Assembly: GCA_009379915.1 (NCBI GenBank)
Contig: WHSV01000007.1
Location: 1-64,000, forward strand
DNA: 64,000 nucleotides
Source of the DNA: Actinomycetota bacterium
GTDB lineage: Bacteria; Actinomycetota; CADDZG01; WHSQ01
Direction of reading: 5' to 3'
The translations under genes were made by a program, and so were the position numbers. Shown here one piece after another: positions 13,326 through 23,201 of the stretch; the stretch's first letter is position 1; every line of letters starts with the position of its first letter. Below the pieces are notes generated by a model, which saw only the letters and a list, made by a program, of their open reading frames with translations, was not told the origin of the DNA and ran no database searches.

Positions 13326-13565
13326 CGCCTGTGCGCAGTTGTCAGATCGGGAGGCTTTGGACCGCCTGGAAGGACGACCGCAAGCCTAACCGGCCGCGAT
13401 TTGCCACCCCTTTTGCCAACCTGCGACGCCAATCGGCCAATTCCTAGGAGGGGTGGCCCGGCGACTCCGGCAGTCTCGTTCGCCCACGTCGGGCCGGCCT
13501 CGGCTGAACTCCACCTGCATGCGGTCTTGAGTAGGCAAGAGCCGAGGGCTGAAGATAGAAGTCCA

Positions 13566-15197
13566 ATGAACACCGACGACCCGCTCCATCGAGGTAGGGA
13601 GTCTTTCTCCCGACAGGCGTGGAGAGATGCGTTCGCCCAGCTATCGGCCGCGGACACGGAGTCGGCGCTCGAGCCAGCCGACCTCGAACTCCTGGCGGTG
13701 GCCGCCGTAATGGTCGGCGAGGACGAAGCGGCCGTCGACACGGGCGCGCGAGCGCACCAGGAATACCTTCGTCTTGGCAATCCGGCGCGTGCTGCCCGTG
13801 CCGCATTCTGGCTCGGGATGCTCCTGCTCGACAAAGGTGAGATGGCCCGCGGCAGCGGGTGGCTCGGTCGAGCCCGGCGGATACTTGACGACGCGCAGGA
13901 GGACTGCGTTGAGCAAGGCTATGTTCTCGTACCTGTGGCCATCCAGACTCTGTACGACGGCGACCTCGCGACTGCGCACGCCACCTTCGATCGGGCGGCC
14001 CAGATCGGAGACCGCTTCCGCGACCCAGACCTAATGACCATGTCTCGGCTGGGACTGGGCAAAGCCCTGATTGGCATGGGAGAGATCGTCGAGGGGGTGG
14101 CCTGCCTGGATGAGGCGATGGTGGCGGTTACCGCGGGTGAAGTGTCCCCGATCGTGGTTGGCATCGCCTACTGCGGCGTGATCGACGCATGCAAACAGAT
14201 CTTCGATCTTCGCCGGGCGCAGGAGTGGACGGCGGCGCTGAGTCATTGGTGTAACGCCCAACCCGATATGGTTCCGTTCCGAGGCCAGTGCCTGGTCAAT
14301 CGAGCCGAGATCATGCAGCTGCATGGTGCATGGCCGGATGCGGTGACCGAGGCCCAACGAGCGTGCGAATCGGTCGCCCGCCAGCCACAGGTTGCCGGCT
14401 CTGCCTACTATCAGCTCGCCGAACTCCAGCGCCTGCGCGGCAACTTCGCCGCCGCCGAGGAGGGATACCGCCAGGCCGGCGATTGGGGAAAGAACCCGCA
14501 GCCTGGCCTGGCACTGCTCCGGCTCGCCCAGGGACACGTCGAGGCGGCGGCGGCGGCGATCCGTCGGGTGGTGGACGAGGCCAAGGACAGTGTGACCCGG
14601 ACCCAGCTCCTTCCCGCGTACATCGAGATCACGCTGGCCGCACACGACATCCAAACAGCACGCGAGGCCACCGACGAGCTAATGCAGATCACAGCCGACG
14701 TCGACGCTCCGCTCCTGCTCGCGGTTGCCGCGTACGCCGAGGGAGCCGTCCTGCTCGCCGAGGAAGACCCGCGAGCTGCGCTTGACGCGCTGCAGGGCGC
14801 CCGGAAGCGGTGGCAAGAACTCGAAGCGCCGTACGAAGCCGCCAGGGCCCGGGCCCTCATCGGACTCGCCTTGCGGGAACTCGGCGACCAGGACAGTGCA
14901 GCGATGGAGCTGGACGCGGCGCGACGGGGGTGGGAGAAGCTGGGCGCCGCGCCGGACCTCGCCCGGGTGGAGAGGCTGTCCGGGGGAGCTGCGTCCAAGG
15001 GCACAGGCGGGCTCACGCAGCGCGAGGCGGAGGTACTACGCCTCGTCGCGGCGGGGAAGACCAACCGGGCGATCGCAGACGAGCTCGTCATCAGTGAGAA
15101 GACCGTGGCTCGTCACGTGAGCAACATCTTCACGAAGCTTGAACTGTCGTCCCGGTCGGCGGCCACCGCGTACGCCTACGAGCACAACCTCGTCTAA
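13566..15197 (+). CDS. TPR-repeat transcriptional regulator with LuxR-type HTH
   Basis: A 543-aa protein. Residues ~1-470 are helical TPR-like repeats and ~480-543 form a LuxR/GerE helix-turn-helix ([20 protein letters not shown], then [20 protein letters not shown]). No P-loop ATPase domain of the MalT/LAL class is present. The N-terminal repeat block clearly resembles that of the cyclase protein at 21234 (both keep an xEWR-like W, LLxxAD, PxDLExL pattern and similar lengths), so the two share one sensor module with different outputs. ATG 13566 starts at the point where the paralogue's homology starts; the frame is open further upstream. No obvious SD. Confidence 0.82.
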
Positions 15198-15349
15198 CCG
15201 CGCCTACACAGAAATACCCACGTCGCCCGCGGAGCCGATTTGGATGGTTCTCCCGATGCGTGAGCTAACGGCTCGCATCTACCTTCCACACTGTGAGCCA
15301 ACCACTCCGGCTGGGGAATCGTGGGGAACCGATTGAAGGGAGACTGGGG

Positions 15350-16483
15350 ATGCACGGCACCAACGGTACAGAGCGGGTCGAGACCGTCATCATCGGCGGG
15401 GGACAGGCAGGTCTATCCGTTGGATATCATCTGGCGCAGCGCGGTCGGCCGTTCGTGATCCTGGACGCCAACGGGCGGATCGGCGACTCATGGCGTAAAC
15501 GGTGGGACTCGCTCCGAGTGTTTACCCCCGCGCGCTACAACGGGTTGCCGGGCTGGGCGTTCCCCGCGCCGGCCCGATCGTTTCCCACCAAGGACGAGGT
15601 GGCCGACTACCTCGAGGCCTACGCAGCTCGGTTCGAACTTCCCGTCCGAACGGGGGTCCATGTGGAGGGGGTCTCCAAGAAGGGAAACCGGTACATCATT
15701 ACGGCCGGCGACCGATTCGAGGCCGACCACGTGGTCGTGGCGACGGGCGCCTATCACACCCCGAGGGTCCCTGCTTTCGACCGCGAGCTCGATTCGAGGA
15801 TCGTGCAGATGCATTCCAGTGAGTACCGGAACCCCTCCCAGCTGCGGGAGGGCGGTGTCCTGGTCGTCGGAGCCGGCAACTCGGGGGCCGAGATCGCGCT
15901 CGAAGCGTCTCATGGTCATCAGACGTGGCTGGCCGGCAGGGACACAGGCCAGGAGCCAACTCGACCTGGGAGCGTGCCGGACCGGCTGCTCGTTCCTGCT
16001 ATCTGGTTCATGGCCACGCGCGTGCTCACCGTGAAAACGCCGATGGGGCGGGCGGTGAAGCGAAAGTTCCGCGATCGAGGCATCCCGCTCGCTCGAGTTA
16101 CGCGGAAAGTCATCGTCGCAGCGGGGATCGAGCGAGTGCCCAGAATGGCAGGCGTGCGGAACGGCCTGCCGCTGCTGGACGACGGTCGCGTCCTTGATGT
16201 GGAGAACGTGATCTGGTGCACGGGGTTCGTGCCGGACTTCCGGTGGATACAACTTTCCATCTTTGACGAGGACGGCCACCCGATGCACGAGCGCGGCGTC
16301 GTTGAATCGGAGCCCGGTTTGTACTTCGTGGGAATGTTCTTTCAGTACGCGCTGTCCTCGATTCTGATCGGAGGGGCGGGTAGGGACGCCGAGTACATCG
16401 CGAACCACATCGCATGGCGGCCGGCGGCCATCGGCGGCCCCGACGAACCGGTGCAAACCCAGATTCTTGGCAGCGAAAGATGA
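15350..16483 (+). CDS. FAD/NAD(P)-dependent flavin monooxygenase-like oxidoreductase
   Basis: A 377-aa flavoprotein of the FMO/Trk-type oxidoreductase family. The FAD-binding motif VIIGGGQAGLSVGYHLAQRG is at ~11-30, RIGDSWRKRWDSLRVFTPAR follows, and the second Rossmann motif VLVVGAGNSGAEIALE for NAD(P)H is at ~163. ATGAYHTPRVP corresponds to the family's ATG motif. The FMO signature FxGxxxHxxxY appears only loosely (MHSSEY). It would hydroxylate or Baeyer-Villiger oxidise a small organic substrate in the cytoplasm. Start ATG 15350 has GAAGGGAG 8 nt upstream. Its stop overlaps the hydrolase gene (ATGA), so both act together. Confidence 0.85.
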   Translation: MHGTNGTERVETVIIGGGQAGLSVGYHLAQRGRPFVILDANGRIGDSWRKRWDSLRVFTPARYNGLPGWAFPAPARSFPTKDEVADYLEAYAARFELPVRTGVHVEGVSKKGNRYIITAGDRFEADHVVVATGAYHTPRVPAFDRELDSRIVQMHSSEYRNPSQLREGGVLVVGAGNSGAEIALEASHGHQTWLAGRDTGQEPTRPGSVPDRLLVPAIWFMATRVLTVKTPMGRAVKRKFRDRGIPLARVTRKVIVAAGIERVPRMAGVRNGLPLLDDGRVLDVENVIWCTGFVPDFRWIQLSIFDEDGHPMHERGVVESEPGLYFVGMFFQYALSSILIGGAGRDAEYIANHIAWRPAAIGGPDEPVQTQILGSER

Positions 16484-17596: not shown

Positions 17597-18652
17597 TCAG
17601 TTCCGGCGGGGCTCCAGCGAGTGAGGATCTAGCCCTCGCGTCGCGGGGCCGTGCACGACCGCGCCGTCGAATCGGTAGCGCGAGCCGTGACAGGGACAGT
17701 CCCACGTCTTGTCCCCGTCGTTCCAGTCGACCGTGCAACCCATGTGAGCGCAGCGCGGAGACAATGCGTGTACGGTGCCGTCGATGTCGATGTAGACAGC
17801 GAGCTTGTTCCCATTGACATCAACGACTCCCCCGTGTCCGGGGGCCAGGTCCTCCAACGTGCGGCCCACGGTCTTTGCGATAAGCAGATCTCTCGGTGCG
17901 CGATGAGCGAGTTCGGCCGGCACTGAGCTCATGACGTATCGGCGTGCGCCCACTATGCCCTTGTTGCCGACGATCATCAGGTCGCCGCGTTCCTCTTCGG
18001 CAGCTTCGATCAGCATGTCTGCGGGTTTGCCACGGACGATCCGCGTGCTGTAAGGGACCCAGTCTGGCTTGCCTGCCGCCGCCCGCTCGAGCACGATCGA
18101 TCCGACAAGCTCATCACCGGCGACATAGACGACGCTTACGTGGATCTCGAACATCATTCCGAGATCGAACGCCTTGCGCACCGCCTCGCTCGCGGTCGGG
18201 GTACCATCGGTCCCCACGACGATCCTGCGGTAGACACGCTGGTCGGCCGTCTTCCTCACCTTTCGACGCGTGCGCACGATGAGCACGTCGCAGGGCGCCG
18301 AGTGTGCGGCACGCTCTGCGACCCCACCGAGCCGCAGCCGACGCGCCCTGCCCATTCCGACGTCGCCCACCGCGATGAGGTCGGCCCCGACGCGCCCAGC
18401 AACGTGTGCGAGTGTCTCGCCGGGCTCGCCGGCGCGTACCTCAGTCTCAGCGGTGACTCCGTAGCGCTCGGCGGAAGCGCGGGCCTTCGCGAGTATTCGC
18501 AGCGCATCGACCCGCGAGACCCCGCCGGGCAAGCTCGCACACGTAATCACAAGGTGGGCCCCGACCGTTTTTGCAAACCGAACCGCCTTCTGTTGCGCGC
18601 GGTAGGAGGTTGCCGACCCATCGGTACCGATAACTATCGTCCTGTATCCCAT
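17597..18652 (-). CDS. UspA-UspA-Rieske [2Fe-2S] three-domain fusion
   Basis: A 351-aa soluble protein with two universal-stress domains and a C-terminal Rieske domain. Usp1 (~1-130) has GTDGS near the start and an ATP-type GDVGMGRARRLRLGGVAE. Usp2 (~143-272) has VVGTDGTPTASEA and GNKGIVGARRYVMSS. The Rieske part (~275-351) has CAHMGC (Cys301, His303) and CPCHGS (Cys319, His322) as cluster ligands. Cys306 and Cys321 occupy the disulphide positions of high-potential bc1/b6f-type Rieske proteins. No signal or membrane helix is seen. It follows the cupredoxin gene by 6 nt. A stress- or nucleotide-responsive electron-transfer protein is an inference. Confidence 0.88.
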   Translation of the reverse strand: MGYRTIVIGTDGSATSYRAQQKAVRFAKTVGAHLVITCASLPGGVSRVDALRILAKARASAERYGVTAETEVRAGEPGETLAHVAGRVGADLIAVGDVGMGRARRLRLGGVAERAAHSAPCDVLIVRTRRKVRKTADQRVYRRIVVGTDGTPTASEAVRKAFDLGMMFEIHVSVVYVAGDELVGSIVLERAAAGKPDWVPYSTRIVRGKPADMLIEAAEEERGDLMIVGNKGIVGARRYVMSSVPAELAHRAPRDLLIAKTVGRTLEDLAPGHGGVVDVNGNKLAVYIDIDGTVHALSPRCAHMGCTVDWNDGDKTWDCPCHGSRYRFDGAVVHGPATRGLDPHSLEPRRN

Positions 18653-18658
18653 GCTCGC

Positions 18659-19444
18659 TCAGCGGGCCACAAGCGTGCCGGTCATCTGCTGGGGATGCAC
18701 ATCACACACGAACTGATAGCTCCCCGCAGCGAGTGCTGGGATCGCGTATTCGATGACGCGCGGTCCGGTGAAGACTTCGCCTGTGAACAGCGGCTCGCCG
18801 TCGCGGCGGTAGATCGACACGTTGTGGGCAACTGATGAGTCGTTGGAAAAACGAAGCGTAAGACGTTCGTCGGCAGGCGCCGTCAAGCGGCGAACGCCGA
18901 ACGACAGTTCTGAGGCCTCGAGCGCGACCTCCGGTCCGCCGCCCGTGGTCTGCCCTGGAACGGCAGGGGCCATTCCGAGCGTCGGTTTGAAGAGCATTAG
19001 ATAAAGGATCACGGCCAAGCCAGCGAATCCGATGCCGGCGATGGACAGTGGTTGGGGAGCCTTCAACAGCTTCTCGAATTGCTCCGGCGTCACGGCGCGT
19101 GATCCTTCGGCCAGGGCCAGGGCCACCAATCGGATGCGGTGATAGTAAGGGCGCGCAAGCGCGTACATCGCGACGGTGACGGCCGCCAGCGTCCCCAGCG
19201 ATGCCCAGATCCAGCCATATCCCCACAACCCTCCATCGAACGCGGCGACGATTCCGCCGAGGAGTAGCACCGCCAGCGATACGTAGAAGGCGGTTATCGT
19301 TGAACTGGAAATCTCCAACAGGGTTACAGCACGGGCCGGGTCTCGCTCGGCACGCAGGCGAAACGTCACGGCCATCGAGACCCCGTGGGAGACGAGCAGG
19401 CCGAAGACCCCTGCAATGTGAACGAAAACCCACCACTGATACAC
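18659..19444 (-). CDS. membrane protein with C-terminal type I copper (cupredoxin) domain
   Basis: A 261-aa protein. Four hydrophobic segments at ~5-28, ~47-70, ~75-98 and ~135-155 form an N-terminal membrane domain, followed by a Gly/Thr linker and a plastocyanin-like domain (~170-261). Copper ligands are visible: His207 (VAHNVS), Cys247, His250 and Met254 in CDVHPQQM, the classic C-x2-H-x3-M pattern. The copper domain should face outside the membrane. First gene of a two-gene operon with the UspA-Rieske fusion, so the operon encodes two one-electron metal centres on probable opposite sides of the membrane. An electron partner (cytochrome) is not encoded nearby. Confidence 0.85.
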   Translation of the reverse strand: MYQWWVFVHIAGVFGLLVSHGVSMAVTFRLRAERDPARAVTLLEISSSTITAFYVSLAVLLLGGIVAAFDGGLWGYGWIWASLGTLAAVTVAMYALARPYYHRIRLVALALAEGSRAVTPEQFEKLLKAPQPLSIAGIGFAGLAVILYLMLFKPTLGMAPAVPGQTTGGGPEVALEASELSFGVRRLTAPADERLTLRFSNDSSVAHNVSIYRRDGEPLFTGEVFTGPRVIEYAIPALAAGSYQFVCDVHPQQMTGTLVAR

Positions 19445-21233: not shown

Positions 21234-23201
21234 ATGAGCCAAGTGATCGAACGCTCTCCGCTGGAGGCGGGGAGGCAAGCCGTCGTTAAGCACGAATGGC
21301 GGGAAGGCTTCGATTTCTTGAGTGAAGCCGACAAAACAGGTGATCTCGGACCGGAGGACCTCGAGATGCTGGGGGAGGCAGCTTGGTGGAGCGGCCGGCT
21401 CGAGGACTGCATCTCGGCCCGCCAGCGATCATTCTCGGGATACTTGGAGTCCGGCCGCCCTCGAGCGGCAGCCACGATCGCGCTCGCGTTGTTTGACGAC
21501 TACGACGCCAAGAGGGCCGGCTCGATAGCCGACAGTTGGTTCAACCGGGCAGAGGGGCTCCTGCAATCTGAAGCGGAGAGCGTCGAGCACGGTCACCTCG
21601 CGGTCCAACGGGCTCGCAAGTCGCTGATGAACGGTGATCTCGAACAAGCGAAGCTGTCCGCAGAGAAGGCGCTCGAGCTGGGCATGAGCTTCGGCGATCG
21701 CGACCTTCAGGCGTTCGGCCTTCTTCTGGGCGGCAACATCCTGGTGAATCAAGGCGACGCCGAGGGAGGGTTGAAGATGCTCGACGAGGCCACGATCGCG
21801 GCGGTGGGGGGAGAGCTGAATCCCCACACCGCAGGTGTCGTCTACTGCCTCGCCATCGCAACGACCGCGCAGATGGCGGACTACGATCGCGCCGGACAGT
21901 GGACGGAGGCCTCCACGCGCTGGTGCGAGCGTCAGTCGATCTCGGGGTTTCCGGGCATCTGCCGGGTGCATCGCGCCGAGATCATGCGGCTTCGGGGTTC
22001 GTGGCTGGAGGCCGAACAGGAAGCGCGTCGAGCGCTGACCGAGCTCCAGAACTTCAACCTGGAGTTCGCCGCGGCGGGCTTCTACGAGGTCGGCGAGATC
22101 CGGCTGCGAATAGGCGATTTGGATGGAGCCCAAGACGCGTTCAGACAGGCGCACGAGTTGGGCCATGAGCCGCAACCGGGACTGGCCCTTCTCCGACTTG
22201 CCGAGGGCCAGTCGCAGGTGGCCTTCTCGTCCCTCAAGAGGGCCCTCGAAGAGCCGATGGCACGGCTCGATCGGGCGCGGCTACTCCCGGGAATGGTGGA
22301 GATCGCCATCGCCGCGGGAGAGATGTCCACGGCGCGCGCCTCCGTCGAGGAACTCAAGACCATCATCGAGATCTACGACAGCAACGCACTAAAGGCGTCT
22401 TATCTCTGTTCACTGGGGGCCTTGCAGCTGGCAGACGGGGATGCTGCGCGCGCGGCGAAGACGCTGAAGCAGAGTTGGAGACTGTGGGCTCAGGGTGATC
22501 TCCCCTATGAGGCCGCCAGAGCGCGCCTCGCCTACGGGGCGGCACTGCGAACCGAAGGCGACGAGGAGGCTGCGCTCCTTGAGATCGGCGCGGCGAGAGC
22601 CGCATTCCGCAAGTTGGGAGCGGAGCTCGATGTCCGGCGCGCGATGGACATGCTGGGCGAGGAGGTCTCCGAGTCGTTGGCCATAGCGTCCGCTCCCGGC
22701 GCGCGCATGGTCAAGTCGTTCATGTTCACCGACATAGTTGGATCGACGAAGCTTGCCGAAGCGATGGGTGAGAAGCAATGGAGCAAGTTGCTCGCGTGGC
22801 ACGATCGAGCTCTGCGAGGTCTGTTCGAGAAGCACGGCGGTGAAGAGGTCAAGCACCTGGGTGATGGCTTCTTCGTTGCGTTCGACGATCCCAGCGATGC
22901 CGTCGAATGCGCGGTAGAGATTCAGCGAAGGCTGGACGAACACAGCGAGACCGCCGGCTTCGCCCCAGACGTCCGCATCGGCCTGCATCACACCGAAGCA
23001 ACTCGAAAGGGCAATGACTACGAGGGCAAAGGTGTGCACGAGGCAGCGCGCGTCGGAGCCATCGCCGGCGCGGGAGAGATCATCGCGTCGGAGCACGTCA
23101 TCAACAAGGCCGCTACGCGCTTCCCCGTCTCGGAATTCCGTGCCGTGAGCGTTAACGGCCTCTCCGAGCCGATCAAGGTGGCGTCGATAGATCCTCGCTG
23201 A
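21234..23201 (+). CDS. TPR-repeat protein with C-terminal class III adenylate/guanylate cyclase domain
   Basis: A 655-aa protein. Residues ~1-475 are TPR-like helices homologous to the LuxR-type protein at 13566. Residues ~490-655 form a class III nucleotidyl cyclase domain: FMFTDIVGSTKLAEAMGEKQ carries the first metal Asp, HLGDGFFVAFDDP the second metal Asp, and VRIGLHHTEATRKGNDYEGK plus VHEAARVGAIAGAGEI the remaining core. Such stand-alone cytoplasmic cyclases make cAMP (or cGMP) in response to signals sensed by the attached module. ATG 21234 is the first codon of the shared TPR block; only a weak ACGGGG precedes it. Confidence 0.85.
   Translation: MSQVIERSPLEAGRQAVVKHEWREGFDFLSEADKTGDLGPEDLEMLGEAAWWSGRLEDCISARQRSFSGYLESGRPRAAATIALALFDDYDAKRAGSIADSWFNRAEGLLQSEAESVEHGHLAVQRARKSLMNGDLEQAKLSAEKALELGMSFGDRDLQAFGLLLGGNILVNQGDAEGGLKMLDEATIAAVGGELNPHTAGVVYCLAIATTAQMADYDRAGQWTEASTRWCERQSISGFPGICRVHRAEIMRLRGSWLEAEQEARRALTELQNFNLEFAAAGFYEVGEIRLRIGDLDGAQDAFRQAHELGHEPQPGLALLRLAEGQSQVAFSSLKRALEEPMARLDRARLLPGMVEIAIAAGEMSTARASVEELKTIIEIYDSNALKASYLCSLGALQLADGDAARAAKTLKQSWRLWAQGDLPYEAARARLAYGAALRTEGDEEAALLEIGAARAAFRKLGAELDVRRAMDMLGEEVSESLAIASAPGARMVKSFMFTDIVGSTKLAEAMGEKQWSKLLAWHDRALRGLFEKHGGEEVKHLGDGFFVAFDDPSDAVECAVEIQRRLDEHSETAGFAPDVRIGLHHTEATRKGNDYEGKGVHEAARVGAIAGAGEIIASEHVINKAATRFPVSEFRAVSVNGLSEPIKVASIDPR

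Follow-up and report, generated by a model that had tools for sequence, protein, structure and literature searches.

What a Rieske iron–sulphur domain does on a tandem universal stress protein (Usp), encoded beside a membrane protein that ends in a copper domain, is the question raised by a locus in a 64,000-nucleotide stretch of DNA from an Actinomycetota bacterium (hereafter the window), which belongs to a 3.39 Mb assembly of 158 contigs. The assembly is placed in the Actinomycetota by its WhiB genes, a family essentially confined to this phylum. A gene on the reverse strand (17597..18652, ATG at 18652 and TGA at 17597) encodes a protein of 351 amino acids comprising a first Usp domain (residues ~3–127), a second Usp domain (~141–261) and a Rieske domain (~267–341), the profile match of the last, a [2Fe-2S] domain, lying at 17630..17854 on the same strand. 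Pfam assigns Usp (2.2e-39; 135.6 bits against a cut-off of 24) and Rieske (1.8e-14) to this reading frame, both over the curated cut-offs, and the Rieske domain has the cluster ligands Cys301, His303, Cys319 and His322, the disulphide pair Cys306–Cys321 and the potential-tuning residues Ser324 and Tyr326. Six nucleotides upstream (spacer GCGAGC), a second reverse-strand gene (18659..19444, GTG at 19444 and TGA at 18659) encodes a protein of 261 amino acids, in which a DUF2269-like four-helix membrane domain (18980..19444, reverse strand) is followed by a C-terminal cupredoxin domain (18662..18964, reverse strand) with the type-1 copper ligands His207, Cys247, His250 and Met254. Here the match to Cupredoxin_1 (4.2e-11) is over the cut-off, and that to DUF2269 (2.1e-5) is just under it (25.1 bits versus 28). 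The AlphaFold2 model of the Usp-Usp-Rieske protein (mean pLDDT 84) resembles tandem Usp proteins and Rieske domains, and that of the membrane protein (mean pLDDT 93.7) resembles blue copper proteins, Brucella FtrB among them, in a fold search of the PDB, where matches to the copper domain, including auracyanin and amicyanin, dominate the top 50. Reading frames, strand, coordinates, spacer, helices and metal-binding residues are all present as given in a preliminary description of the locus, and both genes probably form one operon, as that description had also proposed from the sequence.

A chance fusion or a misassembly in the window is excluded, because the same architecture recurs in 32 other loci. 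In a homologue search with the protein against 81 relatives and then with a profile against 397 genomes of the phylum, 33 copies of the Usp-Usp-Rieske gene were detected in seven families, a count that takes in the window's copy and one truncated at the end of its contig, and all 33 members match Usp; the architecture is therefore not confined to the window, which the preliminary description had left as a possibility. A full copy is lacking from all of the other 15 genomes in the family to which the window belongs, and the nearest relatives of the window protein are found in a sister family (64% identity, genome G020), so that loss or transfer is likely. No plasmid record covering 80% of the Usp-Usp-Rieske protein was found, and a pattern scan of genome contigs gave a single match, a Rieske domain in a Bacillales MAG. 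The literature was searched for the architecture and for its components, and no account of a Usp-Usp-Rieske module emerged. The gene module is thus real, it recurs, and the papers covered do not describe it.

The constant partner in this module is the DUF2269-like membrane domain and not the cupredoxin, since an adjacent gene for a DUF2269-type four-helix protein is visible in 31 of the 33 copies, whereas a cupredoxin is fused to this protein at only 15 of the 33 loci. The cupredoxin is thereby ruled out as an obligate partner, and its constant adjacency, which the preliminary description had considered, does not hold. The DUF2269-type gene is either located upstream in the same operon or is a convergent neighbour 2–53 nt away. 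The count of 31 takes in one locus where the tail of the gene is seen at a contig end (G237a) and another where the cupredoxin part lies at a contig end (G257). In G179a the upstream side is cut by a contig end and the neighbour is unreadable, and the only true exception to this near-obligate neighbourhood is G150b, in which a gene for a DUF2231 membrane protein lies directly downstream. Setting aside the module pair and the antisense frames over it, no other gene family occurs at more than 7 of these loci. In the phylogenetic tree, a clade of 16 copies (support 100/99) contains all 15 fused-cupredoxin copies, which are always codirectional with the Usp-Usp-Rieske gene where the gene order is readable; the 17 copies outside this clade are without a cupredoxin or unreadable in this respect. 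A pairing of DUF2231 with Rieske is seen directly downstream of one Usp-Usp-Rieske copy (L117:5699-6307), and a DUF2231-Rieske fusion is encoded near the module in G020 (L040:10810-11664).

The Rieske domain was initially called bc1-type. As regards the ligands and the disulphide this is borne out, Cys301, His303, Cys306, Cys319, Cys321 and His322, and Ser324 with them, being kept in all 32 aligned sequences that reach the domain; two cysteine and two histidine ligands together with the disulphide pair characterize high-potential Rieske proteins. Position 326 is tyrosine, as usual in the operon copies, or phenylalanine, as usual in the convergent copies; tyrosine at this position raises the potential of a Rieske cluster. 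As a term for the kind of protein, bc1-type is loose. A bc1/b6f Rieske subunit (complex III) is ruled out by the NCBIfam scores (b6f, 58.8 versus a cut-off of 154; QcrA, 23.3 versus 275), by the Usp domains that replace the N-terminal membrane anchor and by the lack of a recurring cytochrome b gene nearby. Its closest kin are Rieske domains at the C-terminus of FAD-dependent oxidoreductases of ~500 amino acids (about 46–61% identity over about 60–85 residues), enzymes that are presumably relatives of Bacillus subtilis YhfW itself, a link that we draw from the domain order. These enzymes share with the module a Rieske domain of a closely similar type, with C-x-H-x-x-C and C-P-C-H-G-S-R-Y/F motifs, that is tied to a cytoplasmic flavin enzyme, although in them the flavin part, different in kind, lies at the N-terminus and Usp domains are absent. 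The domain is a Rieske of the cytoplasmic YhfW C-terminal type, YhfW/b6f-like, and not a bc1 subunit. YhfW has no assigned function (PMC7317962).

A candidate electron donor appears in the neighbourhood. A flavoprotein NAD(P)H reductase is encoded in 12 of the 16 copies of the cupredoxin clade and was identified in none of the 17 others (Fisher p 5e-6, a value that serves as a guide only, since the sequences are related, their kinship is uncorrected and flank lengths differ). In six copies (G267, G297, G287, G257, G101 and G179, the fusion in G287 being cut by a contig end), the C-terminus of the Rieske domain is fused to Pyr_redox_2 and Reductase_C domains, and in three others (G150, G189 and G218) a separate adjacent gene encodes a ferredoxin reductase homologous to the fused ones. 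Both the fused and the adjacent reductases are of the type that serves dioxygenase ferredoxins (BphA4/HcaD/AndAa). In G022, G018 and G020, whose proteins are closest to that of the window, the gene directly downstream is instead of the Si-specific NAD(P)+ transhydrogenase (SthA) type; it reaches 480.7 bits in G022 (cut-off 465), is intact in G018 and is similar in sequence and frame-broken in the assembly of G020 (L040:6663-8070). That the reductase occurs as a fusion, as a separate gene or exchanged for another class of flavoprotein points to the same biochemical need. No reductase is visible in the operon of the window, and no Reductase_C protein was found in its genome. Two further candidates for the donor in the window genome were rejected: an FAD gene at 15293-16483, which lies on the opposite strand from the module and is of the Pyr_redox_3/monooxygenase type, and transhydrogenase-like proteins, which are only 30–33% identical to the G022 gene. 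Within the clade that has reductases, a conserved protein of 78 amino acids is encoded close to the module (L119:7922-8158, L122:7747-7983 and L118:7844-8080), the L122 copy being without a Pfam match.

The class of these reductases suggests that the Rieske protein might be the soluble ferredoxin of an oxygenase, as in BphA4–BphA3-like systems, with the membrane gene as a mere neighbour. The module relatives do resemble BphA4/HcaD-type systems in that a Rieske protein has an NAD(P)H-FAD reductase fused to it or encoded next to it. They differ in that the Rieske domain, with the extra disulphide cysteines of high-potential proteins, is on a Usp scaffold, that a membrane partner is adjacent in 31 of the 33 copies and that no oxygenase family recurs nearby, and we consider such a role very unlikely. 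The preliminary description had suggested an undescribed redox-signalling or respiratory-bypass module; of this, the recurrence of the module and its operon are supported, and the fused and neighbouring reductases speak for a role in electron transfer, while its pairing with the cupredoxin as a fixed element was not sustained.

The membrane partner belongs with DUF2269 (PF10027) in that the module proteins show a profile-profile match of 99.6% to other DUF2269 proteins and have a conserved histidine in helix 1, and 24 of 29 module members match Pfam DUF2269 at E <= 0.1. Lysine plus arginine per sequence amounts to 4.9 in loop 1 and 5.8 in loop 3, versus 0.4 in the N-terminus, 0.7 in loop 2 and 1.0 in the segment after helix 4, and from the positive charge of loops 1 and 3 both termini, and with them the cupredoxin, are predicted to be outside. 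The Usp-Usp-Rieske protein is predicted to be inside, because its first Usp domain starts at once and leaves no room for a signal or anchor. In the alignment of the module DUF2269 proteins, His20, Ser46 and Trp78 are invariant and Arg31 and Glu33 nearly so, and with the predicted topology the conserved Arg31, Glu33, Ser46 and Tyr54 are on or near the cytoplasmic side. His9, in helix 1 like His20, is common to the wider DUF2269 family, to which the module subfamily adds the His20-Gly-x-Ser motif, R-x-E and, in 15 copies, the cupredoxin. Among the sequences aligned, His20-Gly-x-Ser marks the module subfamily, G029 C164 having a similar His-Gly.

A membrane domain with both termini outside and a C-terminal electron carrier outside is also seen in the membrane urate oxidase PuuD (DUF989 and cytochrome c), for which oxidation on the cytoplasmic side has been proposed and a weak similarity between DUF989 and DUF2269 (E 0.15) reported (PMC4562309). 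PuuD has haem in place of copper and no Rieske partner. Homology of DUF2269 to PuuD is unsupported by profile comparison (probability 0.6–13%, not significant), and PuuD is accordingly kept as an analogy only.

All four copper ligands are kept in 14 of the 14 fused cupredoxins aligned, methionine included, as in electron carriers. This argues against copper or iron handling, in which the cupredoxin would collect or deliver metal at the membrane with metal-reducing electrons supplied by the reductase–Rieske chain. Such a function would fit the resemblance of the cupredoxin model to FtrB, among others, and, in G022 and G018, the separate DUF2269 and cupredoxin genes that are divergent from the gene for cytochrome oxidase subunit I, an enzyme to which copper has to be delivered. 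Among the genes around the module, transporters or chaperones for metals do not recur, and we regard this reading as improbable. At two loci, in two relatives (L172:106-5068 and L173:3686-8666), a second DUF2269 gene is followed by a separate gene for a lipoprotein-like cupredoxin and one for a many-helix protein without a Pfam match, the group being divergent from the cytochrome oxidase subunit I gene.

Most of these parts fit an NAD(P)H-fed electron relay from the cytoplasm to the cell exterior, which we propose tentatively, at somewhat short of an even chance. A cytoplasmic flavoprotein, in six relatives one polypeptide with the Usp-Usp-Rieske protein, would oxidize NAD(P)H and reduce the high-potential-type Rieske cluster on the tandem Usp protein. 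The Rieske domain would then dock on the DUF2269-like four-helix protein from the cytoplasmic side, and through this protein the electron would cross the membrane, perhaps by way of a haem or metal at His9/His20, and in the clade of the window the fused type-1 copper domain outside would take it and pass it to a respiratory acceptor. Transfer across the DUF2269 domain, by way of a candidate cofactor site, is the weakest step of this mechanism; to our knowledge, a pair of histidines on a single helix does not correspond to any recognized haem site. Further support comes from the occurrence of this Rieske subtype at the end of FAD oxidoreductases and from the DUF2269 and cupredoxin genes beside cytochrome oxidase subunit I in two relatives. 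The relay is weakened by the confinement of the reductases to a single clade, by the missing reductase in the operon of the window and by the 17 of 33 copies in which neither a cupredoxin nor a reductase was identified. If the relay operates, the reductase-fusion protein would be expected to oxidize NAD(P)H and, on its own, to pass the electrons to the cluster that it carries.

The same parts would serve electron flow in the inward direction, in which the cupredoxin would be reduced by a donor outside and electrons passing through the relay would reduce NAD(P)+ in the cytoplasm. Cupredoxins do serve ferrous iron oxidisers. The step from a high-potential Rieske centre to NAD(P)+ would nevertheless be steeply uphill, and nothing in the locus appears to couple it to the membrane potential, so that this direction is hardly to be expected.

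The tandem Usp part of the proposed export relay may bring adenine nucleotides into play. ATP, AMP and cyclic nucleotides are common ligands of Usp folds. The nucleotide motif G-x2-G-x9-G-S/T ends in G-G in domain 1 of the window protein and in S-S in domain 2, where most relatives have G-S, and the loop residues Asp11 and Asp149 are present in the window. The module resembles known tandem Usp proteins (Rv2623 and TTHA0350) and the cAMP-binding Usp proteins Rv1636 and MSMEG_3811 in its two Usp folds with putative nucleotide motifs that are largely kept, and differs from them in its redox domain. Among the sequences that match the Usp domains best are the mycobacterial Rv1636 and MSMEG_3811, both of which bind cAMP (PMC11107214). 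The name of stress sensor given to the protein in the preliminary description had been drawn from the Usp fold alone and is unsupported as stated. Genes for class III cyclases adjoin the module in G022, G018 and G046, and genes for cNMP-binding-domain proteins adjoin several copies, a neighbourhood that is merely suggestive of nucleotide control because cyclase genes are common in this phylum.

These cAMP-binding matches and neighbouring genes would also suit the main rival to the relay, redox sensing. In this case, the module would be a redox- and nucleotide-responsive regulator, in which the Rieske domain reports the cytoplasmic redox state, the Usp domains sense an adenine nucleotide and the membrane protein serves for anchoring or takes part in signalling, with no electrons crossing the membrane; retention of the Usp-Usp-Rieske gene where the cupredoxin is absent is in keeping with this. 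On the other hand, fusion of the Rieske domain to an NAD(P)H reductase dedicated to it fits catalytic electron supply better than sensing, an external type-1 copper domain has no obvious sensing role and no output domain was found, and we consider a regulator possible but rather unlikely.

As a further part of the relay, the tandem Usp would bind an adenine nucleotide, whether ATP, AMP or cAMP, and act on the relay as a gate or a tether. Taken to its full extent, the proposal would be an adenine-nucleotide-gated, cytochrome-free export of electrons across the membrane, from NAD(P)H through FAD, the Usp-tethered Rieske centre and DUF2269 as the conduit to type-1 copper, bypassing complexes I and III; this complete form we hold to be doubtful, at about one chance in four. 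If it were true, DUF2269, a widespread family without an assigned function, would acquire its first one as a transmembrane electron conduit, universal stress proteins would act directly on electron flow and not via unknown partners, and bacteria known mainly from genomes would have a route from NAD(P)H to copper that avoids quinones.

Small proteins with a cyclic-nucleotide-binding domain adjoin the module in several genomes (L122:7183-7701, L123:1106-1540, L047 and L127). The module of the window is flanked by two regulators with similar N-terminal regions, both encoded on the forward strand (21234-23201 and 13401-15197), one of which ends in a class III cyclase domain and the other in a LuxR-type HTH.
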